Origin: Belnapia moabensis DSM 16746
GTDB taxonomy: Bacteria; Pseudomonadota; Alphaproteobacteria; Acetobacterales; Acetobacteraceae
Assembly (NCBI RefSeq): GCF_000745835.1
Contig: NZ_JQKB01000046.1
Span: forward strand, 1 to 42,084
Direction: 5' to 3'
DNA: 42,084 nucleotides
Positions 6,703 through 29,986 of the stretch are shown one piece after another. Each line of letters opens with the position of its first letter. Within the stretch, counting starts at the first letter, position 1. Under the pieces are notes generated by a model, which saw nothing but the letters and a program-made list of their open reading frames with translations, searched no databases and had not been told where the DNA came from. The position numbers were made by a program, and so were the translations under genes.

Positions 6703-6715
6703 GGGAGGGACCGGG

Positions 6716-8323: not shown

Positions 8324-9973
8324 ATGACAGAAGGCATCCTCCTCTTCCAAATGCTCATTATCTCGACGATCTTGGTAACGCGAGTTGTTTCCAAGGAACA
8401 TGTCCTGGCAGCCTGTTGGGCTTGGACCCTCTTCACCCTCGTCGCCGTATTTGCCTCGGGATTGATGGTGCTGCAGCTTGTGGTCGTGTGGGGCGCCTAC
8501 ATGCTCCTGCGCCCGAAGGAAAGCGTCGGGTCTGAAACACCGAAAGAGGTGGCGAAGCAGGACGGGAAGTCTCCACCGCGCGCTCCCACCCCAGTTCCAA
8601 GGCAGATGGCTTCAGTAACCGAAGCCCGAGCTGTAGAGACGACTGCGACGCCGCAAACTTCGACCTTTGAATTTTCTCTGCAAAGTATCGACGGTGCCAT
8701 CTCGCGGCAGTCCGCGATCATTGAGGCGACGGGTGGATTGCGCCTCACCTTCTCTGTCGAGAGGCAGATGCTTGAGATGGCCCTGGAACGCGCTACGAGG
8801 CATCTGCAGCACGAAAGACATATCCAGTCCCTGGGAAAGGAGAGAGGAGAGGCGTACCGAAAAATCTACGAGGAGAATCGGGCGAAGATTTCCGCTGTTA
8901 TTGACTCCAAGCTGGAACCTAAGAGACCTCTCCCCGCGCACCCCGTCCCCGACTTCACGTTATCGCCGCGCTACGCGGACGACATCCACAGGGATGCAAT
9001 CGAGCAAAAAGTCGCACAGATCAAGGTGGAGCGCGATCAGTTCCGTTCTGGGCTCCTTCGGGAATTGCGGGCGAATGACCGGCTGCGCGAGAGATTCTGG
9101 GAAGAGTTGTCCAGGCTGGGACAGCCGCACATACAAGCGAGTCTCTATGATCTTTGGTTTGGTAGCTCGCCGAAATCCCCGAGGCTTGTACCGAGACTCA
9201 CGTGGGAACAGACGTTTGCGTCCGTCCAATCGGCCAAGCTCGGTGCAGCCGAGATCGACGGGCTCTTCGCGGCAGCATACGTCAAGCAAATCCTTTGCCT
9301 CGCCAACTCGCGGAAGACGGGGGGACGCTGCATTGCCGGGAAGGAGTGGGATGACGGATGCGCCGGCGCCTGGCTGCGCCCGGTCAGCGCGCGCTCCAGC
9401 CATGAGGTCTCGGACGCTGAGCGCCGATACGAAGGCGGCGGTGAGCCGGGGGTGCTAGACATCTTGCAGGTGCCCCTGCTCGATGCATGCCCTGACGGAT
9501 GGCAGCAGGAGAACTGGCGCCTGAACCCCGACGAATGCTGGAAGAAAACGGGACGGCTCGAGTGGCCGAAGCTCGCTGACTTCTGTGATCCAGTCGCGCC
9601 GCTCTGGCACAACGGGGACAGCACCTACTACGGGAAGAACGACGAGATCCCGCTGGAGCGCGCGAAGCTCCTCCGATCATCTCTGCGCCTCATCCACGCA
9701 CCGGCAGTCCGTCTGCGCGTGTTCCGGCCTGGAGAGGCGTTTGGAAACCCAAAGCTACGTGTGCAGGGGCTTTTCGAGCACGCGGGAGATAAGTATGCGC
9801 TTCGCGTTACGGACCCGGTCTACGAGCACCAGTTCCAGGCGAAGCGGGAGGGCTACTATGATCTGGGCGAGAGCTATCTGACGATCAGCATTGGCGAGCC
9901 GTACGAGAAGCGGCAGGCCTGCTACAAGCTAATCGCCGCCATCATCCCCCGTGACCCGGGCACAGCCGTATGA
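8324..9973 (+). CDS. Membrane-anchored protein with C-terminal dual-OB-like domain
   Basis: 549 residues from ATG 8324 (a GTG at 8309 adds five; a stop at 8297 blocks longer starts). The first ~65 residues contain two hydrophobic segments (ILLFQMLIISTILVTRVV and a longer one ending LVVVWGAYMLL), then a Pro-rich linker and a charged region (~125-270) likely to be coiled coil. From ~325 on, ILCLANSRKTGGRC, GAWLRPVSAR, a Glu/Arg/Tyr motif and LDILQVPLL match what I recall of the dual OB-fold (DuOB) domain often encoded beside DUF488 genes; that association is from memory. The stop overlaps the next start (ATGA), so it is coupled to the DUF488 pair. OB folds usually bind nucleic acid, so this could be a membrane-tethered sensor; that is inference. 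Confidence 0.65.
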   Translation: MTEGILLFQMLIISTILVTRVVSKEHVLAACWAWTLFTLVAVFASGLMVLQLVVVWGAYMLLRPKESVGSETPKEVAKQDGKSPPRAPTPVPRQMASVTEARAVETTATPQTSTFEFSLQSIDGAISRQSAIIEATGGLRLTFSVERQMLEMALERATRHLQHERHIQSLGKERGEAYRKIYEENRAKISAVIDSKLEPKRPLPAHPVPDFTLSPRYADDIHRDAIEQKVAQIKVERDQFRSGLLRELRANDRLRERFWEELSRLGQPHIQASLYDLWFGSSPKSPRLVPRLTWEQTFASVQSAKLGAAEIDGLFAAAYVKQILCLANSRKTGGRCIAGKEWDDGCAGAWLRPVSARSSHEVSDAERRYEGGGEPGVLDILQVPLLDACPDGWQQENWRLNPDECWKKTGRLEWPKLADFCDPVAPLWHNGDSTYYGKNDEIPLERAKLLRSSLRLIHAPAVRLRVFRPGEAFGNPKLRVQGLFEHAGDKYALRVTDPVYEHQFQAKREGYYDLGESYLTISIGEPYEKRQACYKLIAAIIPRDPGTAV

Positions 9974-10587
9974 GCGTAAAGCCGAAGTCTCTCCTGACCA
10001 TCGGGCATTCCAACCATCCGCTGGAGATGTTCCTAGCCTTGCTGAGACAGCATGGGGTGACGGCGGTGGCTGACGTTCGCTCAGCCCCGTTCAGCCGCTT
10101 CAACCCACAATATAATAAAGTGGAACTGGAGCGCGGCCTCAAGGCGGAAGGCATCCGCTACGTCTTCCTTGGGCGCGAGCTAGGCGCGCGTTCCGATGAT
10201 CCTGCCTGCTACGAGGGAGGACGCGTGCGGTACGCGCGCCTGGCCTGCACCGAGGCTTTTCGCCAGGGCATCGAGCGTTTGTGCCGCGGCGCTCTGGAGC
10301 ACCGCATCGTTTGCCTCTGCGCCGAGAAGGAACCGTTGGAATGTCATCGAACGCTACTCGTAGCCCGCGCGCTCGAGGCGGAGGGCGTTGAGGTGACTCA
10401 CATCCATGCCGATGGTGGCCTTGAGCCGAACACGATGGCAATGGAGCGGCTGCTCGACGTTACCGGCTTGCCGCGGGAGGATCTGTTCCGATCACGCGAG
10501 GAGCTAGTCGCTGAGGCCCTGGCGCGGCAGGAGGAGAAGGTCGCCTACGTGGACGAGAAGCTGGCCAACGATGCGGAGAACACCTGA
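9970..10587 (+). CDS. DUF488-family protein, first copy
   Basis: 205 residues. The start TIGHSNHPLEMFLALLRQHG, followed by VADVRSAPFSRFNPQYNK, is the signature of DUF488. The conserved Cys/Glu/Cys-His-Arg motif is present as CLCAEKEPLECHR (residues ~114-126). The biochemical role of DUF488 is not established; the conserved cysteines and acidic residue suggest an active or metal-binding site. It begins inside the stop of the dual-OB gene and ends with a one-base overlap (TGATG) with a second DUF488 gene, so the three are one translationally coupled operon. A C-terminal extension of ~45 residues, absent from the second copy, follows the core. Confidence 0.85.
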   Translation: MSVKPKSLLTIGHSNHPLEMFLALLRQHGVTAVADVRSAPFSRFNPQYNKVELERGLKAEGIRYVFLGRELGARSDDPACYEGGRVRYARLACTEAFRQGIERLCRGALEHRIVCLCAEKEPLECHRTLLVARALEAEGVEVTHIHADGGLEPNTMAMERLLDVTGLPREDLFRSREELVAEALARQEEKVAYVDEKLANDAENT

Positions 10588-11024
10588 TGCAGGTCTTCAC
10601 GATCGGCTTCACAAGAAAGACGGCAGAGAAATTCTTCGGCCTCCTCCGCGCGTCCGGAGCGAAGCGCGTCGTGGATGTGCGGCTCAACAATGTCTCGCAG
10701 CTCTCGGGCTTCGCCAAGAAGGATGACCTCGCGTACTTTCTGCGAGAAGTAGCAGCCATGGACTACGTGCACGTCCCCGAGCTCGCCCCGACGCAGGAGA
10801 TGCTGGCCACCTACAGGAAGCAGACTGGCGACTGGCCGCAATACGAGCGGCGCTTTCTCGGGCTGATGCGGGAACGCAGGATCCAGGAGAGTCTGCCCCG
10901 CTCTATCTTCGACGGCGGCTGTCTTCTGTGCAGCGAGGACGGGCCGCATCACTGTCACCGCCGCTTGGTCGCGGAGTACCTCCAGGAGCACTGGGGCGAC
11001 GTCACAGTGAGGCATCTCACCTGA
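10587..11024 (+). CDS. DUF488-family protein, second copy
   Basis: 145 residues, starting in the stop codon of the first DUF488 gene. It opens with FTIGFTRKTAEKFFGLLRASG and VVDVRLNN and retains the Cys/Glu/Cys-His-Arg motif (CLLCSEDGPHHCHRR, residues ~110-123). It is shorter than and clearly diverged from the first copy (low identity outside the motifs), so it is not a recent duplicate. Two different DUF488 proteins translated in coupled fashion suggest a heteromer. The operon ends here and faces the helicase-methyltransferase operon tail-to-tail across a decayed resolvase. Confidence 0.85.
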   Translation: MQVFTIGFTRKTAEKFFGLLRASGAKRVVDVRLNNVSQLSGFAKKDDLAYFLREVAAMDYVHVPELAPTQEMLATYRKQTGDWPQYERRFLGLMRERRIQESLPRSIFDGGCLLCSEDGPHHCHRRLVAEYLQEHWGDVTVRHLT

Positions 11025-11073
11025 AAGCAGGCGGCCGCCGCTGCTGGCTTGGGCGGCAGCCTCAGCCTAAGGC

Positions 11074-11782
11074 CTAGCCCTGACCCGCATCATGAGGTTG
11101 CCCGGCCGCCAGGACCACCCGTCGCACCTGGGCGGGCGACCAGCGTCGTCCACCGCGCGGCGCCGGCACACCTCGGGCCATGAGGGCCTCCGCGATCGCC
11201 GCGAGCGTGCCCGCACCCGCGCGTCGTGCCTGCTCGATGTATGGCGCGACCGCGGCGGCATGCCGGCGTGCTTTCTCGTGCTGGACCGCGTTTCACGACG
11301 CCGAGAGTGCCGCGCCGCCCATGAGTAGACGCGGATTGCCGAGCCGCACCCCCCCTCGCCTTCGCCGCAGCGAGCGCCGCCTACGTGCGCGCCGAGACCA
11401 GGCGCGCCTCCTCCTCGGCGACCGCGGCGAGGACGTGCACGGTGAGGCAGTTCACCATCGGCATGTCGGCGGCGACGAACTCGACGCCGCTCTCCATGAG
11501 GTTCGAGACGAAGGCGACGTTGCGGGCCAGGCGGTCGAGCCGGGCGATGACGAGCGTAGCGCGCAGCGCGCGGCAGGCCGCGAGCGTCGCAGCGAGCTGC
11601 GGCCGGTCCTTCTTCCTCCCGCTCTCCACCTCGACGTGCTCGGCAACGATGGAGCCGCGGCCGGCGGTATGGGCCGCGACGGCGGCGCGCTGCGCCTCGA
11701 GGCTTAGGCCGGAACGCCCCTGCCCGTCGGTCGAGACCCGGAGGTAGGCGATGAAGCGGGTGGGCGGCGCGGGGTCGGCCAT
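11074..11782 (-). pseudogene. Decayed serine resolvase/invertase
   Basis: Starting from ATG 11782, residues 1-133 are a good resolvase N-terminal domain: YLRVSTDGQGRSGLSLEAQR with the catalytic Ser, then VIARLDRLARN. An in-frame TAG stops it after LVSART. Beyond this, the normal continuation is still readable in broken form: AALAAAKARGG, a shift at a run of seven G, LGNPRLLMGGAALSAS, another stop (TGA), then a DNA-binding tail with TLAAIAEALMARGVPAPRGG and WSPAQVRRVV ending at TAG 11074. Two stops and a shift mean it is dead as a recombinase. It lies between the two convergent defence operons and may mark how they were joined. Confidence 0.85.
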
Positions 11783-11987
11783 GCTGCGATCGGAGCTTGA
11801 CCGGACCGTTTTTTCAACCCCAAACGACCGTTTGAGAGATTGTGAAGCCTTGAATGGACAAGCACTATTTGGAGCGACAATGGTTAGTTACCGGGGTAAA
11901 CGTAAGCGCCGAGTATGGTCCACTGGGGGGCCGGCGCTGCTCCGACGCGGATTGCCCCCCAATCGGCGCTGGGTGTGTTCCTCGGCG
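11783..11987. other. Spacer after the helicase operon
   Basis: No supported gene. The stretch contains ACCGTTTTTTCAACCCCAAA near 11806 and would hold the terminator of the minus-strand operon (whose last gene ends at 11988), but no strong hairpin with a T-run was found by eye. Reading frames here have no recognisable content. Confidence 0.35.
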
Positions 11988-14102
11988 TCAGCCTAGCCGG
12001 ATCAACATGGCGGCGCGCTTGGCCCTCGTCAGGGCCACGTAAATGAGCTTGCGCCTGTCCAGCGTATCGTCGGTCGGTCCGAGGTAACTGCTCGGCGCGA
12101 CGACAACGACGGCGTCGAACTCTAAGCCCTTCGCACGATGCATCGTCGCGACGCGCACGGCGTCGGGCGCATCGGAGTGGTTGTTCTGCGCCGAGATGGT
12201 GACGCACCTCACACCGGCTGACTGAAGCTGGTCCGCGACAGCGTCGCGGCCCTTCTCGCCTGCCGCGATGACGCAGATAGAGATCACATCACCGCCCACT
12301 TGGCCGCCCCTAAACCGCTCCACGAATCCGACAGCGTGGGCCGCAGCGGCCTCGAGGCCTTCAGCCGCGACCTCCAGCGGTGCAGGCCCGTGCGACAGAG
12401 ACTTGTAGAGGCGGCTCTCATCGTGTCCGTCGTCGAGGTCGTCGATTTCGCACCCTTCCAATAGCGCCACTGCGCGGCGCCGGATCTCATCGGTCGTGCG
12501 ATAGTTCAGGTACAGCTTCCGGGAGCGACCACGTATGTCGATCCCGCACTTGCTCATGGCTGCGCGGTGCCGGCTGTAGATACGCTGGTGTCCGTCGCCC
12601 ACGAAGAACAGGTCGTTGGCTCCTTTCGCAATCATCGCCCGAAGAAGTTTCAGGGCCTGCGGCCCAAAGTCCTGGGTCTCATCGACAACGATTGCGCTGT
12701 AGGCTCCCTCTTCTACCTGCACCCCCGTCAGCAACTCGGCCACTTCGCGGTAGGCGTCGTCGACCTCCTTCAACTTGCGGGAGGCGAGCTGGCCACGATA
12801 CTCCTCGAAAACCGGCCACACGGCGTCCCGTTTGGCGCGGCTTAACACCGCTGAACGGCCGGTTCGACGCGCCACCCGGTACTCGTCCAGTGTCGTGATA
12901 CCCTGGGCAAGTATCACCTGCTCGAGTTCCTGCTCGTAGAAGTCGTCCGACAGGTCGAGCTTCGTTTCGCGTACGGCCATTGCGGCCTGCCAAGCCTGCA
13001 GCGTTGCCTCCTGCCTGCGGTCGTAGACGATGCGGTGCTCGAGCTTGCGTGCGCGCATGAACCCGTGCACCCACGCGTCCAAATTCTTCACTTCGATCTT
13101 GGCCAGCGCCTCCGCGCCGGACAGCGTCCTGAGGTTCTGCTCGATGTCGCCGGCCAAGTTACGGGTGAAGGTAGTGAACAGTACCTTCTTACCCTCGGGC
13201 GTCCTATGCTCGGCGAGCCACTTGGCGCGGTGCATCGCGAGGACCGTCTTACCGGTTCCTGCTCCGCCGAGCACGCGTACCGGACCGCTCCTATCACCGC
13301 GCGCCAGCTTGCGCTGGGTTGGGTGAAGGAAGACGCGCCACTGCGCGAGCGGCGCGTTCATGATGGCGAGCATCGCCTCGTCGTCCTCGACGACCACGAA
13401 GCGCGACATCGACTCGGGGGTTGTCAGCGCGGTCGCAAAGTCCGCCGGGTCCACAACGCGGTCGACGCGAGTCTCGCGGTCGCTCAGCACCTGGCTTACG
13501 GTATCACCCGCTGCCACGAGGAACAGGCCCTCATAAGCTTCGACGGGCAATCGCCCCTGCATGGCGTCGAGTTGCTCCTCGGAGACAACGGTCCGCACTG
13601 CCCCGAGGGAGTCCTCAGGGACCCCGAGTCCGAGGAGATCGCCGTCGCTAAGCTTTGCAAAGAGCGGCTCTGCGGGCGTGCCAGCCGCAGGCGACACACT
13701 CATCGGCGCCGGCTGAGCGACTATGTCGGGGATGCCAGCGGGCGCTCGTTCTGGCACGCTCTCGAGGATCACCAGCTGCATTGCGCCGGTCACAGGATTG
13801 ACGGCTAGCTTGCGGTGCTCGGCCCAGCGATAGGCGTTGTCGTGGTGGTCAACGTAGAGCAGCACGTAGACGTCGCCGCTGTTCGGTTTGAACACGATCC
13901 CGCGCCAGTCGCGGTCGATCCGAACCGACTTCAGGTTCGGGTCGCGGGCGCCGTTGATTTTTTCATAGTTGATGCCTGGGCTGGTTGGGTCCGACTGGAA
14001 CTGGACAGCCCACTTCATCACCTTCGATTGGATGCTGGCCGGAAGCTTCGCTAACTGCAACAGGAAGTCCTGGGAAAGGGCTACCTTGGGCTTGAGGGTC
14101 AC
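11988..14102 (-). CDS. RelE/ParE-like domain fused to UvrD-type SF1 helicase
   Basis: 704 residues, GTG start at 14102, four bases after the stop of the giant helicase gene. Residues ~1-100 have a RelE/ParE toxin-like fold signature: LAKLPASIQSKVMKWAVQF, then INYEKINGARDPNLKSVRI and YVLLYVDHHDNAYRWAEHRK. The rest is a UvrD/REP-type ATPase: Walker A GGAGTGKTVLA near 280, Walker B/motif II VVDETQDF near 472, motif V TMHRAKGLEFDAVVV and motif VI YVALTRAK near the C-terminus. Such RelE-UvrD fusions exist widely; whether the toxin-like part still cuts RNA or only binds ribosomes or nucleic acid is unknown. It is the last gene of the four-gene operon 28583-11988 and likely contributes ssDNA translocation. 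Confidence 0.88.
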   Translation of the reverse strand: MTLKPKVALSQDFLLQLAKLPASIQSKVMKWAVQFQSDPTSPGINYEKINGARDPNLKSVRIDRDWRGIVFKPNSGDVYVLLYVDHHDNAYRWAEHRKLAVNPVTGAMQLVILESVPERAPAGIPDIVAQPAPMSVSPAAGTPAEPLFAKLSDGDLLGLGVPEDSLGAVRTVVSEEQLDAMQGRLPVEAYEGLFLVAAGDTVSQVLSDRETRVDRVVDPADFATALTTPESMSRFVVVEDDEAMLAIMNAPLAQWRVFLHPTQRKLARGDRSGPVRVLGGAGTGKTVLAMHRAKWLAEHRTPEGKKVLFTTFTRNLAGDIEQNLRTLSGAEALAKIEVKNLDAWVHGFMRARKLEHRIVYDRRQEATLQAWQAAMAVRETKLDLSDDFYEQELEQVILAQGITTLDEYRVARRTGRSAVLSRAKRDAVWPVFEEYRGQLASRKLKEVDDAYREVAELLTGVQVEEGAYSAIVVDETQDFGPQALKLLRAMIAKGANDLFFVGDGHQRIYSRHRAAMSKCGIDIRGRSRKLYLNYRTTDEIRRRAVALLEGCEIDDLDDGHDESRLYKSLSHGPAPLEVAAEGLEAAAAHAVGFVERFRGGQVGGDVISICVIAAGEKGRDAVADQLQSAGVRCVTISAQNNHSDAPDAVRVATMHRAKGLEFDAVVVVAPSSYLGPTDDTLDRRKLIYVALTRAKRAAMLIRLG

Positions 14103-14106
14103 GGCG

Positions 14107-17100
14107 TCAGTCCTCGTCGTTCTTCAGCGTCAATCCGAGGGCCGCGGAGGTCATCGTCTCCCAGGGTAGCCCCTCTCTTGTCCTCAGCGTATCGTTCAGC
14201 CGGACCACTCTCCACCCCGCCCGCTCCCAGTTCTCGGCGAGGTCGCCCTGGTCGGGCCGCAGCACCGCTAGCTTCTCGTCTGGCCAAGCCAGCTCGGCGT
14301 CTGCGGCGACGCGCCCCCTCTCGTCCGCCAACTCCATTCCCACCTCCGGTGGCGGCGCTCCCGCGAGGGCCAGCACTTGAAGGCCGTTTCTCAAAGCCCG
14401 TAGCGCCTGCTCTATGGCCTGCTGCCAGACAGCGCTGAGCGCGGGCTGCGCCGGAGGGCCCGCCGGCGCATTGGGCGCGCCGGCAGGGCCAGAGAAATGG
14501 TCGTAGTCGTGCCCGTCGAACCCGGACATCGTGGCAACGATGAAGCCCGGCAGGAACTGCATCGCGTTGGCGACCTGTAGCCATCGGCGCCAGCTGGCGT
14601 GGAGTGCCTCCTCGTCAGCCGCCACGGCCTCGTCAAGCACCGCGACGGCCGGCGCCACCCAAGGCCATGCGGCGGGCATCCCCTTCGCCAGCACCATTGG
14701 CCAGCTGCCGACCAAGGCAACAGGCCCGTTCGGCCGCGACATCATCGGTGCGTAACCGGTGCCAGGCTCGCGGATGTAAGGGGGGAGCTTTGGGAGGACC
14801 TGCGCGCGTTGGGCTTCGCATACGGCGCGGTCCTGCGAACTTGACGGGATCATGCGAAAGCCGAGCCCGGCAGCGTCGCGCTGCATAACGTCCAGCGAGT
14901 GGTCCCCGGTGGCCCCACCAGGGCCGATCGCCAGCCAATGCAGGAGGCGCGCAACCGCGTTCTGCGTGAACGCCTTCTCCTGCGGGCGGGGGATGCTGGC
15001 CGGTGCCCCTGCGCCGTCGTTCCTTGCCATCACCACCAGCGGGGACTCCAGGTCGGTAGTCAGGCTGCCGCCCAACGCTGCGGCAACGTCCTGGTGCGTT
15101 ACCGACCAGACCCAGTACCGCGCGCTAGCGAGGATGGCGCTGCGCTTCAGCGCGTCCTCCCGCAGCTTGCCCTTGTGGTAAGCCCACCCGTCGCAGAAGA
15201 TCGCAACTGGCCTGCGCCGGGAGCCGGCAGCCCAAGGCCAGAGGACGAAGTCCGGCTTGCTCGGCACGGACACGCCATCTTGGCCGCCGACCTCGACCTG
15301 CGGCTCGATGCGGTAGCGCTGACCGCCGACCTCCAGCACGTAGCCCGCCTTACCGTTTACGATGTCCTGCACAAGCTTGACGGGCGGAAGGCCGCCGACG
15401 CCGCCCAGCTTCTTCAGGCTCTGGACGAACCGCGCCTCGAGAACCGAGTCGAAATTCGGATTGATGTAGATGTCCGAGATCGTGTCGACCCGCACTAGGG
15501 AGCTCAGCGCCTCCAGCAGCTCGGACAGGACGGACTTAGCGGTCTCCCTGGAGACCAGCCCCATCTGTCTCCCAAGGCGATACTGGTAGAGGCAGCGATA
15601 GCAACCATCCTTCTCCGGGTCCTCGTTGCAGGAGCAGCCAGTAAGGGCCTCCAGGGCCATCCGTAGGACGTCACCCAGCGTCTTCGCGTCGTGCGCCAGC
15701 AGCTGGTGCAGGTAGCCTGTTCCGCCTGGAACGGAGTCGTAGAGCATCACGTAGTGCTTGCGGGGGCCGCCGTCCTTGCCCGGCTCGTCCTGCAGCACCA
15801 TGCGGATGTGGTCGACCTTGCCGCCGAAGCGCCGCTTCAGGCCCAGCTGTACGGCGGCCATGAAGGACTGGACCACTTGGTCGTCTACGCCGAGCTTTGT
15901 GTAAGGTATAAGGATGCGCAGCGCCTCGGACTCGAACTCGCGGTAGAGGTAGAGGCATTCCAGAAGGTTGCCGGGATCGTCGGTCCCGTGTTTGACACAA
16001 TCGAAGCTGTGGACATGGTCGGCCGCGCGGCCGCCGGAGCGGGCCGTCTTCTGGACTTTTCCGCAGTGCCGGCACAGCCTGAAGCCCGGACGCTCCGCCT
16101 TCCGGCCGGCGACCTTGAAGTCCACGCCGGGCCTCGCGAGCTCGCCGAAGTTGACGTCGCGGAACGCAGCGCGGGAAATGAACTCGAACCCGAACGGCGT
16201 GCCGCCCGTCGGTATCTGCCAGGCTTCCCGCACGTCGGTCGGAAGGAAGTCCGCCATTAACTGGCGGACGTAGTACTTGGGCTCCCGGTCCTCGCTGCTG
16301 TCGTCAATGCGCACCTCGGTATCGTTGCTGTTTGCGATCGCCTGGCGGAAGCGCAACAGGGTGCGCCTCTGCCCGCCGTCCGACCACATCGGATCGGCGC
16401 AGCGCGGACAGGTCGGGTGGATGTCCGGCTCGACTGCAAGGTTCTGCATGTGGTGGCAGCTCGGGCAGAAGCGCCAGTCCTCGGTCTTCGCCAGTGACAT
16501 GTTCACCTGGTCGACCTCGACCCGTCGCTGGTTTGCGTAGAAGCGATTCTCGGGCGCGAACTCGGACAGCGCTGACTGCGCGGGCCGCTCGTACTTCTGC
16601 GCGGCCAGGGTGACGTAGGCGCCCGGCCCCGGCTCGTCGCTGCCTCGCTTCCTCCACAGCACCGATTTCAGCTGGATCCCGGCCTCGGGGAAAGCGTAGT
16701 TCGGTATGAGGCCGGCATCCGTGAGCGTGCCCAGCAGGTCGCGCCCGTTTATCTCCGCGATCAGTTGGAGCATCTTGTCGCGCTCGCGCTCCAGGCCCTC
16801 GATCTCCTTCTGGGTCGCCTCGTCCTGTGGCCTTTGCTGGGCCTTCGCCCTGGCTTTATCGAGCTCCTCCCTCTTCGCCTTGTAGGATCGGCGCTCCTCC
16901 ACAAGTTCCTGCAGCACCTTAAGCAGGCGGGACCGCAGCCCGTCAGTTTCGCCCTGACCCTGCATGAAGTCCCAGAGGCGGCTACGCACGACGTCGCTGG
17001 CGTCGGGCCCGAGCAGACCGACGAACGCGTCAAAGAGCCGCTGCTCGTGCTTCAACACGTGGTCGGAGAAGAGGTACGGAAAACGGTCCTGCCTCGACTG

Positions 17101-20523: not shown

Positions 20524-20538
20524 GCGGTCCCCCTTCAG

Positions 20539-23500
20539 TCAGCTTTGCTGCGCTTGGAAGAAGGCCCAGGCGGTACGGTAGTCCGCCTCCCGGTCGGCGC
20601 GGGTGAAGGGCGCGACGTAGCTACGCTCCACCGTGCGCGGGCCGTCAGGCAGCGTGTCGTCGGCCACCCATTGAGTGACGATCGTGCCGTCAGGCACAAG
20701 GAATTCATCGTCTCTGTGCAGATCCTCCCAGCCGAAATTGCCTTCGCGGGCCCTGCCGTGCGGCGTGCGGATGCGTGTCCGCGGCGTCGTGCGACTGCCT
20801 TTGCGTGGCAGACCAATGCCGACGAGGCCCTTGCTGTTAGTGAAGACGATGCGGCCCTCGATGTCATACCAAGTGTCGCGCTCATACTGCTGCATAACCG
20901 GAAACTGCACGCGATAGATCAGCAGCAACTCGTCCAACGCGAGGCCAAGCGCCTGAGCTACAAGCACATCAATTTCGACTAGCGCCATACGGCGCGCGTA
21001 GTCGGCGCGCAGCGCGCAGCGACGCGTCCAGGTGCTGGTCAGATTGGACCAGAACTCTTGTGGCAACCGAGGATTGGAGGGCTGAGTCCAGCTTAATTCG
21101 GTGAAAGGAAGATCAAAAACCGACTCCCATATGTCACTGTATCGGGTCGTAAGGCAGTTTAAAGCCAGAGCCCGGGCTACCACTGCAGGATCCCAAGAAA
21201 TTGGTATGGGCAACTGACCGACGAGGGTGGAATTTGCGTGCCCCATGCCGGTAGATTTCACACGGTAATCAGTCACGACCGAATGTGACCACGCCAAAGC
21301 AGCACAAAGATCCCGCGGATTTCGAAACGCATGCGCAAGAACAGTGTTGACGTGCGCGCCTCCGGGCGCCACCAGCGCGCTGATATACGTCCGCTCGTTG
21401 GACGATACGATCATTTCACGGTTTACCATTCTGTAGTAGCTCGTGACGGGCCTTCTTTGACCATCTTTCGTGTCTCGCCAGGTGACGCGCGGAATGCGAG
21501 CCACGTAGGTCGCGCGGTCTTGCATCGGCCTGTAGTTCGTCCGTGCCATATAATCGTCGGGAAGGTCCAAAAGGTCGATTGCAGTGTAAGCGCCCCGAGT
21601 ATTTGATATTCGGTCTGGCGTCTTGCTAAACGGATTTGCCACGTAGAAATGAGGGCCACTCATTACTAAATCTTGAAGGCATTCAGGAAATCCTACATCT
21701 CCGGCAGCTCTCCGCACAATAGTACCATCTTTCTGACTGCCTGTTTCGTTCCAAAATTCTGTAGAAAACCAATCTTGGCCCAGATCAGATATGCGACGAG
21801 GCCAAAGCGCAAGCTTAGCCATAACGCTGCTCAGACTCTGCGCATGCAACCCTGGCAAGCGCGCATGACGCGCTGGAATATCCGGTGAACCGTAGAGCTG
21901 AGCAAACACCGCCAGTGCTTCGTCGTTCACGCGGACTATACGTTTGGCGTGACCTACCGTGTTCCAAGCCCCAGCAGCGTCCCGAATGCCTCCGACTTCG
22001 CCTGTTCCATCGTGCTGAAAGCAAGCATCGACCGTTTTCGGTGTGAAGAGATTAGAGATATGGTCAAAGTCTACTTCAGCACGTGGCGGACCGTAAATGT
22101 GCAAGCCGAAGCGTAGGCGGCCATGATCGTTCGTGCCCACGAAGAGCTGCAACTCATTCTGAAACTGAAAATGCGCCCGCAATCTCGGATAGAGCGCCGC
22201 GCGGAGATTCCCGCCTTTCGGGTCGTCGTAAGGTCCCTCGGGATGCAGCAGTCCAGAGATGCCGTGTTGAGAATTCAGACTCCAAGCTAGCGGCATAAAG
22301 CATTTGTAAAGATTCGCTTTCATTCCTTGAAGAAGTGAGTAGTTCTGCACCGCGTTTAGAAAGCTTTGCGTCCCCTCCGCTTCCTCCAGTTCGGACGTCC
22401 ATGCCTCGCGCAGCCCTGCGTGACAATGGAAAGCCTGGGCACGTAGCTTCGCTAGCTCGGAGGCGCTGACGTTCCGGATGGCAAATACTGGATCAGCCTC
22501 GCCGAGCACTCCCGCCTCGTTCCAGGCGACCTTCAACCATGGCGGGTTACCAAGAACGAGGTCGAAGCCGGCCCGATGGATCAGCACATCCGCAAAACAG
22601 AGCTCCCAATGCATGAAGCGACGCGCCGCGGCGATCGCTTCCACCTGCTTGACCCTCGGTAAGTGCTCTCGCATGCGGCTGATGCGCAGCTGACCGAAGC
22701 GGTCGTGCAGACGCGGCGGCTCAGTGACATGGCGTAGCGGCAGTTGGGTCTCGAGACCGGCAAGGGTGCCCTGGCGCTCGGGCACCAGCAGCGGGCCAGG
22801 GTTCTGCAGCAGTGGTTGGAGATCGAACTCCTGCTGCGGCGCGACGTCCACGACGTTGCCTTCCAGGATCGCGCCGACTTCCAACCACCAAGCCTCGCGG
22901 CTCGGCAGTTCAGCGCTCGCGGTGATCGGCCAGAACCACAGCGCGCACCAGTAATCCATCACCAGCTTCAGCCGGCGAAAGGGCGTGGCCAGGTCGCCAT
23001 CCTCGTTTAGCAGTCCCTGGCGCCGGATATCCTCCTTTTGCGCGCGGGTAAGCACGGGATGCGCTTGGTCCTGCGACTTCTTGGTGTGCGGCCAGATATC
23101 CAGCGCGTCCTCGGTGCGGGCGCGGTCGCGGGCGAGCGCGTTGATGTGCTCCTCCCACAGCTCCTCCACCCTAGAGCTGAGCTGCTGCAGCCGGGCTATC
23201 TCGTACGACTGCAGCGGCGCTGTGAAGGCGCGGCGCCACGCCTTCAGCTGCTCGAAGTGCTCCGGATAAAGCTTCTTCGCGTCCTTGTCGGTATAGTCGG
23301 CCATGCCGGGGTCGGGCAGCAGGAAATGCCAAATCTCGTCGGCATTACGCGGCGCATCGGCAGTGACGCGGCGGGGCGGCCCCTCGTGCCAGGCCGGCTT
23401 GGCGCCCCGCGTCAGGCTGCTCGCGTCGTAGACCTGCCGGCGCGCGCCGATCAGGCTGTTACCGGTAAAGAGCTGGTAGCCGAACCAGGGCACGCGCGCG

Positions 23501-25623
23501 GCCAGCGGGCGACCCTCGCCGTCGGTCTCGCCGTAGATGGCGTTGAGCCATATGGACACCTCCGCCAGCTCCACCGCGACGGGGTTGAGGTCCACACCGA
23601 ACACGTTCCGGGCGGCGAGGACCATGCGGACCTTCTGTAGTTCTTGCGCGAAGTCCTCATGCGGAACGCGGCGACGCAGCTCCTGCTGCTTGCGCTCGAG
23701 ATAGGCGTCGGCCAGCTGGTTGACTGCCTCGTTAATGAAGGCAGCGCTGCCCATGGCGGGCTCGCAGACCGTCAGAGTCAGGATGTCGTCGGCCTTCCGC
23801 ACGCGCTCGCTGTTGAGCAGTTCTTTCAGCGCGTACTTCACCAAGCACTGGGTCAGCACCTGAGGGGTGTAGTAGCTGGCGCTTTTCTCCCGGTCGCGGC
23901 CGGCGAGGCGGTAAATAAAGCTACCCTTATCGTGCTTCCTCAGCTTTTGGTGCCCGTTCTCGTCCAGGTCATAGACGCGCTCTTCTTCCCTGAATTCCTT
24001 GAGCCGGCGGGCTGGGACGAACCAAGCGTTCTCCAGCTTGTCGTCACCGTTCTGGCCCACCCGGCCGCGGCGAGAGGAGGGGGTGTCCTTGGCCTCGCCC
24101 TCCTCGTCGTCGCTCTCTGCTCCTTCCTCGCTCTCGTCCTCGCCGGTGGCTCGCCCCTTCTTTGGCGCGGGCTTCACCTCGTAAAGGTCCTCGGCTGCGA
24201 AGAAGCCGCGGTAGCTCAGTAGGGCCTCGTACACCGCGCCCAGCTGGTTGATGGAGAGCAACTGGTAGCTCACGCGGCCGCTGCGACGCCCCCGACCCTG
24301 GCCGCGGCTCAGCGACATCAGGCGGATCACGCGCTGCCACACATGGTTCGGAAAGCGCACCTTGTTGAGCAGCGGCAGGGCGGTGTCGTCGAACAGCCTG
24401 CTGTCGAGCGGCGCTAGAGCAAAGGTGTCCTTGGCGCCAGCCACGGAAGCGGCGAGCTGCTGGTTCGCCACTGTGAAACCACAGCCCCGGGATACAAGCG
24501 TAAACAGACGGCGCAGCGTCGCATCAAAGAAGAAGCCATCGTGCGCCTGTGGCGAGCTCAGCGGTTGAAGTTCCAGGTCGCGCAGGCTCTCCAGACTGTA
24601 GCCTTTGAGGTAGACCTCGCTCTTGCGGATGGGCACGTAGCCCAGTTCTGGCCGCGCCTCGATGTAGAACATGAAGAGCAGCCGGTAGACCATGCGGAGG
24701 CATTCGAGGCTGAGGTCCGAAGGGTCCAGCTGGTCCTTTCCGCTGAAGAAGCCCTTCTTTGCTTCCGCCGCCTTCTGGCGAAGCTGGACGGCGGCCTCGT
24801 TGCCGAGAAGCTCGATCGCCTCGCGCAGCGCGTACTTCAGGTCCTCGCTAACGCCGAAGGCATGCTTGTGCGCGTTCTCGTCCAGGCTCTCGAGGAGGCT
24901 GTTGCCCTCGCCCGGGGTCAGGCAGTCCTTGTGCAGCAAGGCCGCGCAGGCCTTGAGGGTGTCGGAATCCTTGCGGTCGAGGATCTCGGCCCAGTCGAAG
25001 CGTAGTGCGCGGTTGTTGGGCCACTTGTAGCGGTCCAGCAGCAGCCATTGGTCGAGGCCAACAAGAAGCACGTAGCGAGGCGGGTGCTCGGCACCGAAGA
25101 CCGCGTCCGAAAGCAGTTCTGCCCAGGGCTCGCCCTGCAAAGGCTGTGGTACCGCCTCGCCGGCGTAGTGAAGGGGCCTCAGCTCCTGGTCAAGCAGGTC
25201 CGAATCCTCAGCCCCCGGCTGATAGGCGGGGATGACGGCGAGGCGCGGGACCTGCAGGCGCCAGAACGGCACTGGAGATCCCGGGACCAGCTCGTGCGGG
25301 GTCGGCAGAGCCGTGGGGGCGGCGTAGCCGAGCGCCTGTAGCAGGCCGGCCTGCAGTTGCGAAAAGACGTCCCAGCGCTCTGCGCTGTCGCGCGCGCGCT
25401 GGATCTGGCCACGCAGGCTGAACCATTTCTGCGCCCAGGATTGCAGGCGCTTGAAAGGGGCTCGGTGTGCGTCATCCCCGGGGTGCTCCGCCTCGGCGGC
25501 CTCCCAGGCGTCGAGGCGCGCCTTGATGTCGCCCTTCAGGACCTCAGCCAGGTAGTGGTGGCTGTAGAACTCGTTCTCGTTGGTGATGCCAGCGAAGGTG
25601 TGGACGGCTTCGAGGACGGGCAT
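20539..25623 (-). CDS. Eco57I/PglX-like N6-adenine DNA methyltransferase
   Basis: 1694 residues from ATG 25623, two bases after the SNF2 stop; a longer in-frame start at 25719 would run into the SNF2 gene. The N-terminal ~450 residues resemble the regulatory/nuclease-like part of type IIG enzymes (RYVLLVGLDQWLLLDRY) without a visible PD-(D/E)XK triad. An acidic linker (~505-535) follows. The methyltransferase core has SASYYTPQVLTQCLVKYAL (~584), motif I LTVCEPAMGSAAF (~623), VFGVDLNPVAVELAEVSIW and motif IV LGNPPW (~1028). The remainder would be the target-recognition region. Bases ~21100-22470 are about 45-55 percent GC against ~70 percent elsewhere in the gene, suggesting replacement of that region. 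Expected to mark host DNA for self-recognition, as PglX or DrmMI do. Confidence 0.88.
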   Translation of the reverse strand: MPVLEAVHTFAGITNENEFYSHHYLAEVLKGDIKARLDAWEAAEAEHPGDDAHRAPFKRLQSWAQKWFSLRGQIQRARDSAERWDVFSQLQAGLLQALGYAAPTALPTPHELVPGSPVPFWRLQVPRLAVIPAYQPGAEDSDLLDQELRPLHYAGEAVPQPLQGEPWAELLSDAVFGAEHPPRYVLLVGLDQWLLLDRYKWPNNRALRFDWAEILDRKDSDTLKACAALLHKDCLTPGEGNSLLESLDENAHKHAFGVSEDLKYALREAIELLGNEAAVQLRQKAAEAKKGFFSGKDQLDPSDLSLECLRMVYRLLFMFYIEARPELGYVPIRKSEVYLKGYSLESLRDLELQPLSSPQAHDGFFFDATLRRLFTLVSRGCGFTVANQQLAASVAGAKDTFALAPLDSRLFDDTALPLLNKVRFPNHVWQRVIRLMSLSRGQGRGRRSGRVSYQLLSINQLGAVYEALLSYRGFFAAEDLYEVKPAPKKGRATGEDESEEGAESDDEEGEAKDTPSSRRGRVGQNGDDKLENAWFVPARRLKEFREEERVYDLDENGHQKLRKHDKGSFIYRLAGRDREKSASYYTPQVLTQCLVKYALKELLNSERVRKADDILTLTVCEPAMGSAAFINEAVNQLADAYLERKQQELRRRVPHEDFAQELQKVRMVLAARNVFGVDLNPVAVELAEVSIWLNAIYGETDGEGRPLAARVPWFGYQLFTGNSLIGARRQVYDASSLTRGAKPAWHEGPPRRVTADAPRNADEIWHFLLPDPGMADYTDKDAKKLYPEHFEQLKAWRRAFTAPLQSYEIARLQQLSSRVEELWEEHINALARDRARTEDALDIWPHTKKSQDQAHPVLTRAQKEDIRRQGLLNEDGDLATPFRRLKLVMDYWCALWFWPITASAELPSREAWWLEVGAILEGNVVDVAPQQEFDLQPLLQNPGPLLVPERQGTLAGLETQLPLRHVTEPPRLHDRFGQLRISRMREHLPRVKQVEAIAAARRFMHWELCFADVLIHRAGFDLVLGNPPWLKVAWNEAGVLGEADPVFAIRNVSASELAKLRAQAFHCHAGLREAWTSELEEAEGTQSFLNAVQNYSLLQGMKANLYKCFMPLAWSLNSQHGISGLLHPEGPYDDPKGGNLRAALYPRLRAHFQFQNELQLFVGTNDHGRLRFGLHIYGPPRAEVDFDHISNLFTPKTVDACFQHDGTGEVGGIRDAAGAWNTVGHAKRIVRVNDEALAVFAQLYGSPDIPARHARLPGLHAQSLSSVMAKLALWPRRISDLGQDWFSTEFWNETGSQKDGTIVRRAAGDVGFPECLQDLVMSGPHFYVANPFSKTPDRISNTRGAYTAIDLLDLPDDYMARTNYRPMQDRATYVARIPRVTWRDTKDGQRRPVTSYYRMVNREMIVSSNERTYISALVAPGGAHVNTVLAHAFRNPRDLCAALAWSHSVVTDYRVKSTGMGHANSTLVGQLPIPISWDPAVVARALALNCLTTRYSDIWESVFDLPFTELSWTQPSNPRLPQEFWSNLTSTWTRRCALRADYARRMALVEIDVLVAQALGLALDELLLIYRVQFPVMQQYERDTWYDIEGRIVFTNSKGLVGIGLPRKGSRTTPRTRIRTPHGRAREGNFGWEDLHRDDEFLVPDGTIVTQWVADDTLPDGPRTVERSYVAPFTRADREADYRTAWAFFQAQQS

Positions 25624-25625
25624 GG

Positions 25626-28583
25626 TCAGGCTGTCGCCTTCAGCGTGTTGGGATGAGCAACGGCCGCGAGCACCTGGATCCAGGGCTGCGGTTCCGTGGT
25701 GAGGGTGTCGTTCACCCATTGGCGGTACTCGTCAAAAACGCGGTTGATCTGCCGGCTCCGATGCTCGAAGCGACCCCGCTTGACCGTCTCGAGCTGTCGG
25801 TCGAGCTCCAGGCTCAGCTGCTCGATCTGCCGACCCTGCAGGCGCTTAAGGTCCCGGAGAGTGCCTTGGAGCCGCTCGTTCAGGCTCTCCGCAAACGCCC
25901 TCTGCTCCTTGACCATGTACGCACGCATCGCCTTCACGGCCAGCGGTAGGGCCCGCTGCATGCCATCCATGACGCGCTCCAGGCCGGGCGCCTCGCCAGG
26001 GTTGGGCAGCTTCCCGGCCTTGATGCCAGCGCGAGCCACGAAACCCTCGAAGGGCTCGAGTGCGAACCCGCCATCCGGGTCGGCGCCGATGCGTCGCGTG
26101 GCGACGCGCCAGTTCACAAGGAGCGGCTGTCCCTTCCGGTTCGGCACGAGGCTCATCAGGATGAAAGCCTGCTCATCCGGGTCCAGCCGGGGGCTCAGAA
26201 GGAGCGGCGCGCGGTGGCGGCCAAACTGCGTGAGCACCCGGTCGCCGAGCCACTCCATGATCGGGTGCTGAGGCCAGAGGTAGTGCAGCTGCGGCCAGGT
26301 ATCCTCCTCGGCTCGCGCTTGGCGCGCCGTCTCGATTGCGGCGGCCATCCGCTGGCGGTCGGCGCAGAGCGAATAGTAGTCGTTCTTGTCCTGAGCCTCG
26401 CGGGGTAGCTGGCGGAGCCGATCCTGGAGGTCGCGCGGGGCGGTGATGGTGATGAGGCGCTCCGCGTCGCGCGACTCCCACTGGCACACCGCTCCCCGCT
26501 GGTTCAGCTGGCTGAGGGCAGTCTTTGCATAGTGGTAGTCGTCCTCGAACAGGGACGCCGGCTCATCGATCTGCGCTAAGCTGTTGACCGATGCAGGCCC
26601 GGGCGCGTTGTCGGCCCCCGCGCCGCCACCGAACAGCTGCATGAGGAAGTCGCCCTCGTTGTCGCCGACGCGTGCTGCCGCATCGTCGAGCATCTGCTCG
26701 ACTCGCTCGGGCGCGAGGCTATCAGCCATGAAGCCGCTGACCTTCTCGGCTTCCTTATCCGGGTCGAACACGTTGAGGAAGGCGGAGGGGTCACCCAAGT
26801 TCAGGTTGGCCTGGTCGTCCTTCCTTTGCAGGATCTCGAGGATACGCAGGTCTCCGCGGACGCGTTCGTTCTGCGTCTCGGTGAAAAGGTAGACGATCTG
26901 TGGCTGGAGCTTCTGACCGTAGCGGTCCACCCGACCGTTGCGCTGCTGGAAGACCATGAGGGACCAGGGCAGGTCGAAGTGTACTAGCCGGTGGCAGAAG
27001 TAGTGCAGGTTCAGGCCCTCGCTGGCCACGTCGGAGCACAACAGCACGCGGATAGGGTCTTCGAGGCGGCCGAATCGCTCGACGAGCTGCTGCTGCTCGG
27101 TGTCCGCCAGCCCGCCGTGCAGGACCTCCAGTTGGCCCCGCCCGAGCTGCAAATCCTTCGTCAGCTGCTGCTGGAGCCACTTCAGCGTCTCTATGCGCTC
27201 CGAAAAGATGACGAGGCGATCGTGGGCTTCGTCCAGTTGCCAGCCGAACTCCGCTGACTGAAGGGTTCGCAGGAGCCGTTGGTATCTGGTGAAGGCACCG
27301 GACGACGAGACCTCGGTCAAGGCGACGAGTGCGGCGCGGAGAGCATCCAGTCCCTCCAACTCCGTCCGCTCGTCGTCGGTCGCGTCTTTTTTGGCGCTGA
27401 GCAAATCGATGCGGCGGCGCGTAGACTCGAGGGCGGCTGCCGGGCTGGAGAACAGCGCCTTCTGGAGGCCGACGCGTTGCAGCTCCTGTTGGCGTCCCGC
27501 CCTGTGTCGGCCGTTCTGGGTAAACGCCACGCCGAGCAGCGCACAGTACGCTGCCTCCTCCAGCGTGGAGGCTGCCTCACGCAGACAGGTCGTCTGCCGC
27601 TCCTGGAAATCGGCTTCAACCTGGTCACGGATGTCCTTCTTAAAGCGCCGGATCACCAGTCCCTTGCTGCTGAAGTCGTCGGGCCTGTAGTCGTCCGGGT
27701 CGGAAATCGCGGTCGGGTCGAGCAAGCTCATTAGGGACGCGAAGCTTCGCGCAGAGCCGTCGTGCGGCGTGGCCGACAGCAGGATGAGCGTGTCCGAGCG
27801 GGCGGACAGCAGCTTGGCGAGGCGGGCGCGACGCGACAGGCCGGACTCGCCGGCGCGCGCCGCGACGTTGTGGCACTCGTCGATGACGATGACGTCCCAC
27901 CAGGCGTTCTCGAGATAGTTGCGGTACTCGAGGTTGCTCTTGAGCGTGTCGACCGAGATGATGCTCCGATCAAAGTAGTTGAAGGGGTTGTGGTTGGCTG
28001 GGATCCGGTTGCGCATCCTCGCCAGGCCTACGGAGTCCAACCGCACCAGGGGGATGGAGAAGCGGCTCCACCACTCCTTCTGAAACTGAGTGAGCATCGC
28101 CTTCTGCGTGACCACCAGGATGCGCTTGCCGCGGCCGCGTTGGATCAGCTCGGTAGCGAGAATGCCAGCCTCCAACGTCTTGCCGAGGCCCACGGCGTCA
28201 GCGATCAGGATGCGCGCGCGCGGCTGGCGTAGGGACTGCAGGGCTGGGTCGAGCTGGTAGGGCACCAGGTTCATCACCCCTCGGTGTCCGAGGTGGATCC
28301 TGGCGTCGTTGGCGACGCTGCGGCGCCGCATGCTCTCGAGGTAGAGGACAGTCGCGTTGTAGGTGGAGCTCGCGTCGGGCACCAACTCGGTTTTGGCTGG
28401 GTCGAGAACCTCGACGTCATCCTCCAGAGTGGTCAGGAAGAGGGGGGAGTGGCCCCGTACAAGGTCGGAGACGCCGTCGCAGCTCAGCAGCCAGCCGCCG
28501 TCGGCGGCTGGGTCGACACGTCGGATGAGCCACTCCTCGTCGCGGATGACGACGCGAGAGCCGGGCGCGTAGGGCAGCAACAT
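25626..28583 (-). CDS. SNF2-type SF2 helicase (DrmD-like)
   Basis: 985 residues; ATG 28583 has AGGA five bases upstream. First gene of the four-gene operon. Motif I is ADAVGLGKTLEAG (~131), motif II VIVIDECHNVAAR (~236), motif III LLSATPHDG, and the C-terminal RecA lobe has CSDVASEGLNLH and motif VI FQQRNGRVDRYGQ (~548), the RapA/SNF2 style. A long C-terminal region (~650-985) ends in a charged helical segment (LNERLQGTLRDLKRLQGRQ). Length and layout are like DISARM DrmD, which is encoded with a methyltransferase in the same way. Its probable job is dsDNA translocation within the defence complex. No nuclease motif seen. Confidence 0.88.
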   Translation of the reverse strand: MLLPYAPGSRVVIRDEEWLIRRVDPAADGGWLLSCDGVSDLVRGHSPLFLTTLEDDVEVLDPAKTELVPDASSTYNATVLYLESMRRRSVANDARIHLGHRGVMNLVPYQLDPALQSLRQPRARILIADAVGLGKTLEAGILATELIQRGRGKRILVVTQKAMLTQFQKEWWSRFSIPLVRLDSVGLARMRNRIPANHNPFNYFDRSIISVDTLKSNLEYRNYLENAWWDVIVIDECHNVAARAGESGLSRRARLAKLLSARSDTLILLSATPHDGSARSFASLMSLLDPTAISDPDDYRPDDFSSKGLVIRRFKKDIRDQVEADFQERQTTCLREAASTLEEAAYCALLGVAFTQNGRHRAGRQQELQRVGLQKALFSSPAAALESTRRRIDLLSAKKDATDDERTELEGLDALRAALVALTEVSSSGAFTRYQRLLRTLQSAEFGWQLDEAHDRLVIFSERIETLKWLQQQLTKDLQLGRGQLEVLHGGLADTEQQQLVERFGRLEDPIRVLLCSDVASEGLNLHYFCHRLVHFDLPWSLMVFQQRNGRVDRYGQKLQPQIVYLFTETQNERVRGDLRILEILQRKDDQANLNLGDPSAFLNVFDPDKEAEKVSGFMADSLAPERVEQMLDDAAARVGDNEGDFLMQLFGGGAGADNAPGPASVNSLAQIDEPASLFEDDYHYAKTALSQLNQRGAVCQWESRDAERLITITAPRDLQDRLRQLPREAQDKNDYYSLCADRQRMAAAIETARQARAEEDTWPQLHYLWPQHPIMEWLGDRVLTQFGRHRAPLLLSPRLDPDEQAFILMSLVPNRKGQPLLVNWRVATRRIGADPDGGFALEPFEGFVARAGIKAGKLPNPGEAPGLERVMDGMQRALPLAVKAMRAYMVKEQRAFAESLNERLQGTLRDLKRLQGRQIEQLSLELDRQLETVKRGRFEHRSRQINRVFDEYRQWVNDTLTTEPQPWIQVLAAVAHPNTLKATA

Positions 28584-28992: not shown

Positions 28993-29986
28993 AGAGCATC
29001 TTGCTCTGTCGCCAGGCTCATGCGGGGGCACCGAGGCGGACGAGGCGCTGGAGGTTGTAGGTAAGTCCGCGAAGTAGCGCCTGGACGCGCTGCGTCGGAT
29101 CTAGCTTGGCGGTGAGCGCCTCGCCATGGCATCGCTTCACAACGGACATGACGGTCTCCACCTTCCACCTTTGACGGTAAGCGACGCGATCGGCTTCGAC
29201 GTCTGGCTTGCCGAGCCGCCGGACCATCTCCTGCCGCAGCGGCGTGGTTGCGACCACGCGGGCCGAGCGCCTCTTCTTGGCCGGGATCAGGCTGTCGACG
29301 CCGAGACCTTCGCGGCAGTGGCGGTGGTTGGCTTCGCTATCATAGCCTGCGTCTGCCAGGAGCTGCTCGAAGGGCATGCGGCTGGCCGCCGCGCTCGCCA
29401 GAGGCGGCAGGTCGGTGAAGTCGCCGCACGGGCCCGGCCTGACCCGCTGCGCCAACAGGATCTGGGGCGCGACCCACATGGCGAAGGCCCATTTCAGCCA
29501 GCCGCGCTGGCCCCGGTGCCGCTTCGCGCGCCACTCAAAGTAGCGGGACGTGTGTGCGAGGAAGAGACCGGTAGAGTCGAGCGCGATCTGGGACGCGCGC
29601 TCAGTACCCCCACGGGCGCGGCGGACGGTTTCATTCAGGGCCGCATCCAGCAGATCGGGGCCGGCATGCCGGCGGGCGAACCGCCATACCGTCGCATGGT
29701 CCGGGACAGCTCGGAGGCCGAGAAGGCGGCGGAGTTGGTCCGAGAGGCGGAGAAGATCCTCCAGGCCACGGTAGGTCAGCCGCAACCTCTCCCGCAGCAG
29801 GAGCAGGGCGAACAGGGACGCTGGCGCGTAGGTCGGGGTGGCGAAGCGGCTCGGGGTGGGGGCTACGCGGCGCGCCACCGTCACCGCGAGCTGGGCAAAA
29901 CGGAGCAGTTCATTGTCCATGATCCCCAAAGTGGGGCTTCAAGCCTTATCCTGCCCGGATAGGCTCGCGACAGAGCAAGATGCTCT
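28993..29986 (-). mobile_element. IS5-like insertion sequence, complete, perfect 20-bp ends
   Basis: The left end AGAGCATCTTGCTCTGTCGC (28993-29012) is the exact reverse complement of 29967-29986. The 994-bp element carries one transposase gene. Flanks read TTA on the left and AAG on the right, so no clean target duplication is visible, consistent with a deletion next to the element. It sits at the border between the defence locus and the replicon module. Confidence 0.9.
29018..29920 (-). CDS. IS5-like DDE transposase
   Basis: 300 residues from ATG 29920 (MDNELLRFAQLAV); a TTG nine bases upstream is also possible. N-terminal HTH-like region, then the DDE triad: Asp in IALDSTGLF (~115), Asp in LLADAGYDSEANHRH (~195) and Glu in RWKVETVMSVVKR (~260), the usual Y-(2)-R-(3)-E type of block. 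Intact and bounded by perfect terminal repeats, so the element is probably still mobile. Confidence 0.92.
   Translation of the reverse strand: MDNELLRFAQLAVTVARRVAPTPSRFATPTYAPASLFALLLLRERLRLTYRGLEDLLRLSDQLRRLLGLRAVPDHATVWRFARRHAGPDLLDAALNETVRRARGGTERASQIALDSTGLFLAHTSRYFEWRAKRHRGQRGWLKWAFAMWVAPQILLAQRVRPGPCGDFTDLPPLASAAASRMPFEQLLADAGYDSEANHRHCREGLGVDSLIPAKKRRSARVVATTPLRQEMVRRLGKPDVEADRVAYRQRWKVETVMSVVKRCHGEALTAKLDPTQRVQALLRGLTYNLQRLVRLGAPA

Follow-up and report, generated by a model that had tools for sequence, protein, structure and literature searches.

ARMADA Type II and PDC-M45 gene sets side by side in Belnapia moabensis, with a DuOB protein predicted to be membrane-anchored

The window analysed here, the whole stretch of 42,084 nucleotides from Belnapia moabensis DSM 16746 (contig NZ_JQKB01000046.1), contains two convergent operons, one on the plus strand (8324 to 11024) and one on the minus strand (28583 to 11988), whose genes overlap or almost touch (Table 1). 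This compact arrangement had been pointed out in a preliminary description of the locus, and all open reading frames (ORFs) named there lie where it placed them. The resolvase frame between the operons, which had been called dead, fits a remnant because its longer DNA matches are plasmid recombinase genes. The integrase, the IS transposase, RepA_C, the ParA-like ATPase and the recombinase pieces give the stretch plasmid and mobile-element features. DNA matches listed for positions 30000-42084 were mostly recombinases and IS elements, with plasmids of Novosphingobium, Roseomonas and Alloyangia represented; Bradyrhizobium was the commonest genus in the tally of these matches. When ten flanking ORFs were scanned with PADLOC, the sole match was a marginal one to mad1 (E=0.001).

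Table 1. Features of the two operons and their surroundings.
Feature	Coordinates	Strand	Support or remark
Tyrosine integrase	6692-7681		
DuOB protein PDC-M45A with predicted N-terminal membrane anchor	8324..9973	+	PF22557 E=4e-64; PDC-M45A 284 bits
Predicted two-helix membrane anchor, about residues 6-67 of DuOB protein	8324..8509	+	Hydropathy; Novosphingobium and Salipiger relatives; model helices 2-26 and 32-67
Putative helical linker, about residues 117-320 of DuOB protein	8657..9268	+	Model, low to middling confidence
DuOB domain, tandem OB folds	9284..9943	+	PF22557; high pLDDT; Foldseek to HIN-200 domains, CST, RPA
DUF488 protein, PDC-M45B	9970..10587	+	PF04343 E=3e-24; PDC-M45B 292 bits
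DUF488-N3a (Pfam 'active subclade'), PDC-M45C	10587..11024	+	PF22751 E=2e-11; PDC-M45C 245 bits
Serine recombinase (resolvase) N-terminal fragment, 133 aa	11381..11782	-	PF00239 E=9e-22; between operons
ArmD: RelE-like N-terminus and GajB-like UvrD helicase, 704 aa	11988..14102	-	PF00580
ArmC: YprA-like helicase, MZB/DUF1998, C-terminal Vsr-like region, 2138 aa	14107..20523	-	DEAD, MZB, Helicase_C; DruE 330 bits
ArmB: YeeA/PglX-like N6-adenine methyltransferase	20539..25623	-	PADLOC REase_MTase_IIG 814 bits; frame open to 25719 (1726 aa)
ArmA: BrxHII/DrmD-like SNF2 helicase, 985 aa	25626..28583	-	NF038317 E=4e-100, 337 bits vs cut-off 610
IS DDE transposase	29018-29929		Directly upstream of ArmA
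RepA_C	30890-31894		
ParA-like ATPase	32623-33372		
Serine-recombinase pieces	36041-37763		

The minus-strand operon codes for three helicases and an N6-adenine methyltransferase, as had been recognized before: Pfam matches were obtained to UvrD (E=9e-22), MZB/DUF1998 (E=1e-12), SNF2 (E=7e-11) and Helicase_C (E=2e-15), and the methylase is of the IIG type. For ArmB, the ATG at 25623, which adjoins the ArmA stop, is a likelier start than the frame start at 25719. A preprint dated 2025-09-15 (PMC12458937) describes ARMADA Type II as a BrxHII-like helicase, a PglX-like methylase, a YprA-like helicase and a RelE-GajB helicase in strict order; according to the same text, deletion of any of these genes abolishes protection in E. 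coli, and mutations of ArmD D454 and ArmB G605 cause only partial loss. An E. coli plasmid (NZ_CP080067.1, locus L003) carries the same four genes in the same order as the Belnapia operon, and the proteins are collinear at 48% (ArmA), 50% (ArmB), 37% (ArmC) and 44% (ArmD) identity. Judged by gene content, order and collinearity of the sequences, the minus-strand operon is ARMADA Type II. The fourth protein had been described as RelE-UvrD: its UvrD part was confirmed by Pfam, while the RelE label follows from comparison of its sequence with the ArmD-like protein of E. coli and from the description in PMC12458937, there being no Pfam RelE match.

The proteins of the E. coli plasmid carry the mutated residues at the numbers given in PMC12458937, and all eight of these residues are identical in Belnapia. 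In the Walker A and B motifs, K135 and D235 of ArmA correspond to the published K136 and D236, K104 and D232 of ArmC to K110 and D234, and K285 and D474 of ArmD to K266 and D454; in ArmB, G657 and N1058 (numbered from the 1726-aa frame) correspond to G605 (GxG) and N971 (NPPW). With this residue-level tie to ARMADA Type II, the earlier claim of a new defence system is retired as far as the four-gene half is concerned. The C-terminal Vsr-like region of ArmC aligns with its relatives, including a PDFVL and a DG motif. The first acid of its ExDG-like motif (residues about 1755-1800) is replaced by F in Belnapia and in the E. coli plasmid copy and by Y in Microvirga; E is found only in genome G183. 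Cleavage by ArmC is therefore not certain. This replacement, together with the IS transposase gene directly upstream of ArmA, would suit an operon that has become a decayed passenger, whose frames remain intact while the nuclease is inactive or the genes are not expressed; we consider this very unlikely, given that all four frames are full-length, that every published residue is present and that the E. coli plasmid ArmC has the same F.

Relatives of ArmC at E<=1e-60 were found in only two of 385 genomes of the class, namely the genome of origin and G183. Searches of viral contigs gave no relative of ArmC and one short relative of DuOB. Some variation was seen among ARMADA II operons: an extra small ORF lies between ArmB and ArmC in some of them (13126-13974 in L129, 13376-13933 in L128), a WYL-domain gene precedes ArmA in Haematobacter and Martelella, and on a Tsukamurella plasmid (L131, 1-24173) ARMADA stands beside DUF1998 and helicase genes that, from their annotation, look DISARM-like.

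The plus-strand operon had been described as coding for a membrane-anchored dual-OB protein and two DUF488 proteins, and this agrees with the match to PF22557, two DUF488 matches (the second Pfam match at E=4e-24) and two strongly hydrophobic stretches at the DuOB N-terminus. The DuOB frame is open from a GTG at 8309, and the ATG at 8324 agrees with the Novosphingobium relative. The order of PDC-M45, with DuOB (A), DUF488 (B) and DUF488-N3a (C) adjacent to each other, is found here. By these profile matches, the operon is PDC-M45, a catalogued and uncharacterised PADLOC candidate, here with a DuOB form that is predicted to be anchored.

In the open-licence literature, no paper was found under the name PDC-M45, for DUF488 together with 'dual OB', or for HIN-200 with phage terms. 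DuOB gave unrelated papers only, and none of the papers on DUF488 alone concerned phage defence by its title or the start of its abstract. A paper that describes Hma as Type-1 BR (PMC12839542) was not among the open-licence papers containing the word DUF488. M45 occurs in many phyla with no paper under its name in that literature and with no convincing relative of solved structure by sequence, and its putatively anchored form offers a concrete starting point for understanding the use of DUF488 proteins.

Sequence searches of solved structures gave no match for the DUF488 sets and one chance-level match for DuOB. Structure models were compared by Foldseek. With the whole 554-aa DuOB model as query, including its low-confidence part, human CST and the HIN2 domain of p202 ranked first and were the only two matches at E<=0.001. 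Among the 50 matches listed, 20 are labelled as a HIN domain or as IFI16; CST, RPA, SSB and telomere proteins also occur, and low in the list, at low probability, stand a few chance-like beta-barrels such as chains of GFP and of a norovirus capsid. By target-normalised TM-score, the best HIN domain reached 0.46 and the best SSB 0.50. The model supports a nucleic-acid-binding tandem OB protein; it does not support common descent with the structural matches. A role of DuOB on DNA is suggested by these tandem-OB matches and by a fusion of RecQ with DuOB (see below); against it stand the weakness of the Foldseek matches (the HIN score being the case in point) and the commonness of tandem OB folds. 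The M45C model (pLDDT 89.8) had no structural match at E<=0.001, so that the chemistry of the DUF488 proteins is a guess, and assignment of a DUF488 fold was dropped as no structural match was convincing.

Hydropathy, one structural model and three sequences predict a two-helix membrane anchor at the N-terminus of the Belnapia DuOB protein (residues 6-67; the model has helices at 2-26 and 32-67). Of 62 other DuOB frames measured, taken from the loci of the best 80 of 574 M45C relatives, 60 have at most 56 aa before the domain, too short for an anchor; four frames with a partial domain, L044 among them, were left out of this measurement. The two exceptions are L112, with 744 aa upstream and a hydropathy peak of 1.82 within a RecQ part, and L086, with a non-hydrophobic upstream stretch of 167 aa (peak 0.06). 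Relatives of the N-terminus are rare, with two plasmid records and none in phage records. In 385 class genomes and 398 phylum genomes (overlapping sets), it was found only in the genome of origin, apart from one weak match, L125. This match (E=1.4e-5) falls in the linker (residues 117-276); in L125, by eye, a DUF559-like region is joined to a single hydrophobic stretch and to the helical region. In Salipiger, the anchor relative is carried by a DUF559/MTES_1575 nuclease protein, and on a Novosphingobium plasmid the anchor ORF overlaps, in a different frame, a DarT ORF that is followed by a NADAR-DarT1 antitoxin ORF.

Co-occurrence of the two operons was examined from both sides. The DuOB alignment was too little conserved to serve as a genome query and the M45C alignment was used in its place; it yielded 574 relatives, the best 80 of which were kept as a sample of close relatives. 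ARMADA genes were scored with our own profiles at thresholds of 300 (ArmA), 200 (ArmB), 200 (ArmC) and 150 bits (ArmD), true ARMADA loci reaching at least 733, 1062, 898 and 484, respectively. Within the stretch covered, none of the 80 M45C loci had an ARMADA gene over threshold. Sub-threshold scores were 194 (L066) and 142 (L052), both from HmaA, as well as 71 and 25 for ArmA, 138 (L077) and 36 for ArmB, 62 (L082) for ArmC, and 53 and 30 for ArmD. The contigs are short: 68 of the 80 extend at least 2 kb downstream of M45C, but only 41 reach 5 kb in each direction; in Belnapia, ArmD follows about 1 kb downstream of M45C. Conversely, neither DuOB nor either DUF488 protein was found within the stretch covered of seven ARMADA loci (E. 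coli, Microvirga, G183, Nostoc, Haematobacter, Martelella and Tsukamurella), all of which extend at least 10 kb beyond ArmD, with Microvirga reaching only 0.4 kb before ArmA. Six of the seven came from 30 plasmid records, the other 24 being left out; 17 of the 30 are from Escherichia or Klebsiella, and three from Streptomyces are partial matches. Complete ARMADA sets without M45 occur in E. coli and Microvirga, and Agrobacterium, Rhodovastum and Allochromatium have complete M45 triples with no ARMADA close by.

We conclude from these sequence comparisons that the locus very probably consists of two independent modules, ARMADA Type II beside PDC-M45. The preliminary description had joined both operons in one system and had named their lack of co-occurrence elsewhere as the outcome that would speak against it; this is what the neighbourhood search found, and a single composite system was rejected on the counts of 0/80 and 0/7 within the stretches covered. 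The underlying reading, a modification-based system in which DuOB and the DUF488 proteins sense or execute for the helicases, could draw on the closeness of the two convergent operons, which are separated by no more than a recombinase remnant, and on the arrangement HmaB-DuOB-DUF488-DUF488-HmaC in other genomes. It is highly improbable in view of the two counts, of the opposed orientation of the operons and of the E. coli ARMADA, which, according to PMC12458937, works as a four-gene cluster. The spirit of that proposal survives in part: in some other genomes M45 does lie inside a methylase-helicase operon, that of Hma.

Among the best 80 of 574 M45C loci, 65 have DuOB by our own profiles and 61 have the ordered triple DuOB-M45B-M45C, in many phyla. 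Of the 19 loci lacking the ordered triple, several are truncated where the contig stops, and some, such as L076, L118 and L122, have M45C alone. In a Nitrospira MAG (L066, 1569-13809), HmaB and HmaC of a complete Hma operon (PADLOC scores of 1711, 1540 and 1138 bits) flank the triple. With Hma profiles built from this locus alone, HmaB before and HmaC after the triple were counted in five of the 80 loci (L043, L052, L058, L066 and L070), which makes a coupling of M45 to methylase-helicase systems plausible. In eight of the 80 loci, a frame with Schlafen AlbA_2 and RecG C-terminal domains (Pfam checked in three) ends beside or just inside the DuOB start. The gene upstream of DuOB in eight loci bears a pAgo label from PADLOC, which was rejected as Pfam gave Schlafen AlbA_2 and RecG C-terminal domains in three. 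L055 (7401-8666) and seven similar loci, in which this Schlafen AlbA_2/RecG C-terminal protein accompanies the triple, may represent a four-gene system. The PADLOC profile for M45B matched in 79 of 385 class genomes at E<=1e-12, a figure that is not a count of M45 since it includes many generic DUF488 proteins and two of 14 control genomes were also positive.

Relatives of DUF488-N3a (M45C) were present in 123 plasmid records, three of which were examined. Lone DUF488 proteins, 57-58% identical to M45C of Belnapia, lie with formaldehyde-detoxification genes, uvrA and uvrB on an Enterobacter plasmid (L040, OW967365.1, 9158-12432), and with formaldehyde genes and replication-associated recombination protein A in Shinella (L041, NZ_CP132309.1, 12001-12432). 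Such neighbours fit repair as well as defence. In L112 (6446-9355), a full-length RecQ helicase is fused to a C-terminal DuOB and is followed by two DUF488 genes. From these neighbourhoods and the RecQ-DuOB fusion, M45 might be a module for repair or tolerance of DNA damage, with defence confined to the ARMADA half. We hold this to be rather unlikely, although it keeps a real chance of being right: full triples are found on plasmids near CBASS genes (Agrobacterium) and in a region of type III-B CRISPR (Allochromatium), as well as inside Hma and after the Schlafen-AlbA gene, and relatives of the Belnapia DuOB anchor are part of, or lie next to, effectors that attack DNA.

For the ARMADA half we propose that ArmB would place N6-methyl marks on self DNA, or would license assembly, that ArmA (SNF2) and ArmC (YprA helicase with the Vsr-like tail) would travel along incoming DNA that lacks these marks and would break it, and that ArmD would contribute a second motor and a RelE-like domain. 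Taken as a whole, we think these steps somewhat more probably right than wrong. The scheme for M45 is more tentative, its chances as a whole falling a little short of even: the tandem OB folds of DuOB may hold single-stranded or distorted DNA, on which, or on the nucleotides of which, DUF488-N3a and its DUF488 partner may act enzymatically, and the anchor may hold the complex to the inner membrane, the point of entry of phage DNA. A broader, speculative view, in our estimate improbable in its full form, would make M45 a plug-in DNA-sensing and DNA-modifying module in which DuOB, as a bacterial tandem-OB domain resembling in structure the HIN-200 DNA sensors of animal innate immunity, brings DUF488 enzymes to foreign DNA. 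Its triggers would differ between lineages, be it Hma, Schlafen-AlbA, RecQ or, in Belnapia, a portable membrane anchor shared with a DUF559 nuclease protein and found beside DarT. If so, the anchored M45 would attack phage DNA at the site of entry, ahead of ARMADA.

The preliminary description had read the genes as defence genes with their nearest kin among DISARM and Druantia types, which the PADLOC and family matches bear out. With DISARM the operon shares a homologous SNF2 helicase (DrmD) and a methylase (DrmMI); here, however, a single protein of 2138 aa combines the helicase with DUF1998, parts that DISARM divides between DrmA and a separate DrmB, and ArmA stays at 337 against the DrmD cut-off of 610. 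DISARM was rejected on its gene set, as DrmA with a separate DrmB and DrmC (PLD nuclease) was not found among the matches listed. Druantia resembles the operon through ArmC, whose best score against DruE models is 330 bits, but the partners of ArmC are a methylase and SNF2. As DruE with DruH or DruA-D was not found among the matches listed, Druantia was likewise rejected. In line with the earlier remark that DrmC, PglZ, BrxC and other Druantia genes are missing, neither the first three nor DruH or DruA-D were among the PADLOC matches listed for the eight operon proteins (at most 25 families for each of the four large ones) or in the ten flanking ORFs; separate Zorya or Druantia genes were also lacking from the scanned locus proteins, parts of ArmC matching DruE and, weakly, ZorE2. 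Hma (HmaABC) is connected through the M45 triples between HmaB and HmaC in other genomes, whereas the partners in Belnapia score as ARMADA/DISARM-type and HmaA is only one among the weaker matches of ArmA (174 bits). When the comparison with named systems that had been advised for the locus was run, the minus-strand half showed the gene set of ARMADA Type II and the plus-strand half PDC-M45A, B and C. ARMADA Type II is matched in its four genes, the order ArmA-B-C-D, domain content and all eight published motif residues; the Belnapia operon differs in its convergent M45 neighbour and in sequence, its proteins being 37-50% identical to those of the E. coli plasmid. PDC-M45 is matched by DuOB and two DUF488 proteins in the same order, the difference being the predicted N-terminal membrane anchor and helical region of the Belnapia DuOB protein. 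While the minus-strand half is already known, the putatively membrane-tethered M45 is a modest new variant.
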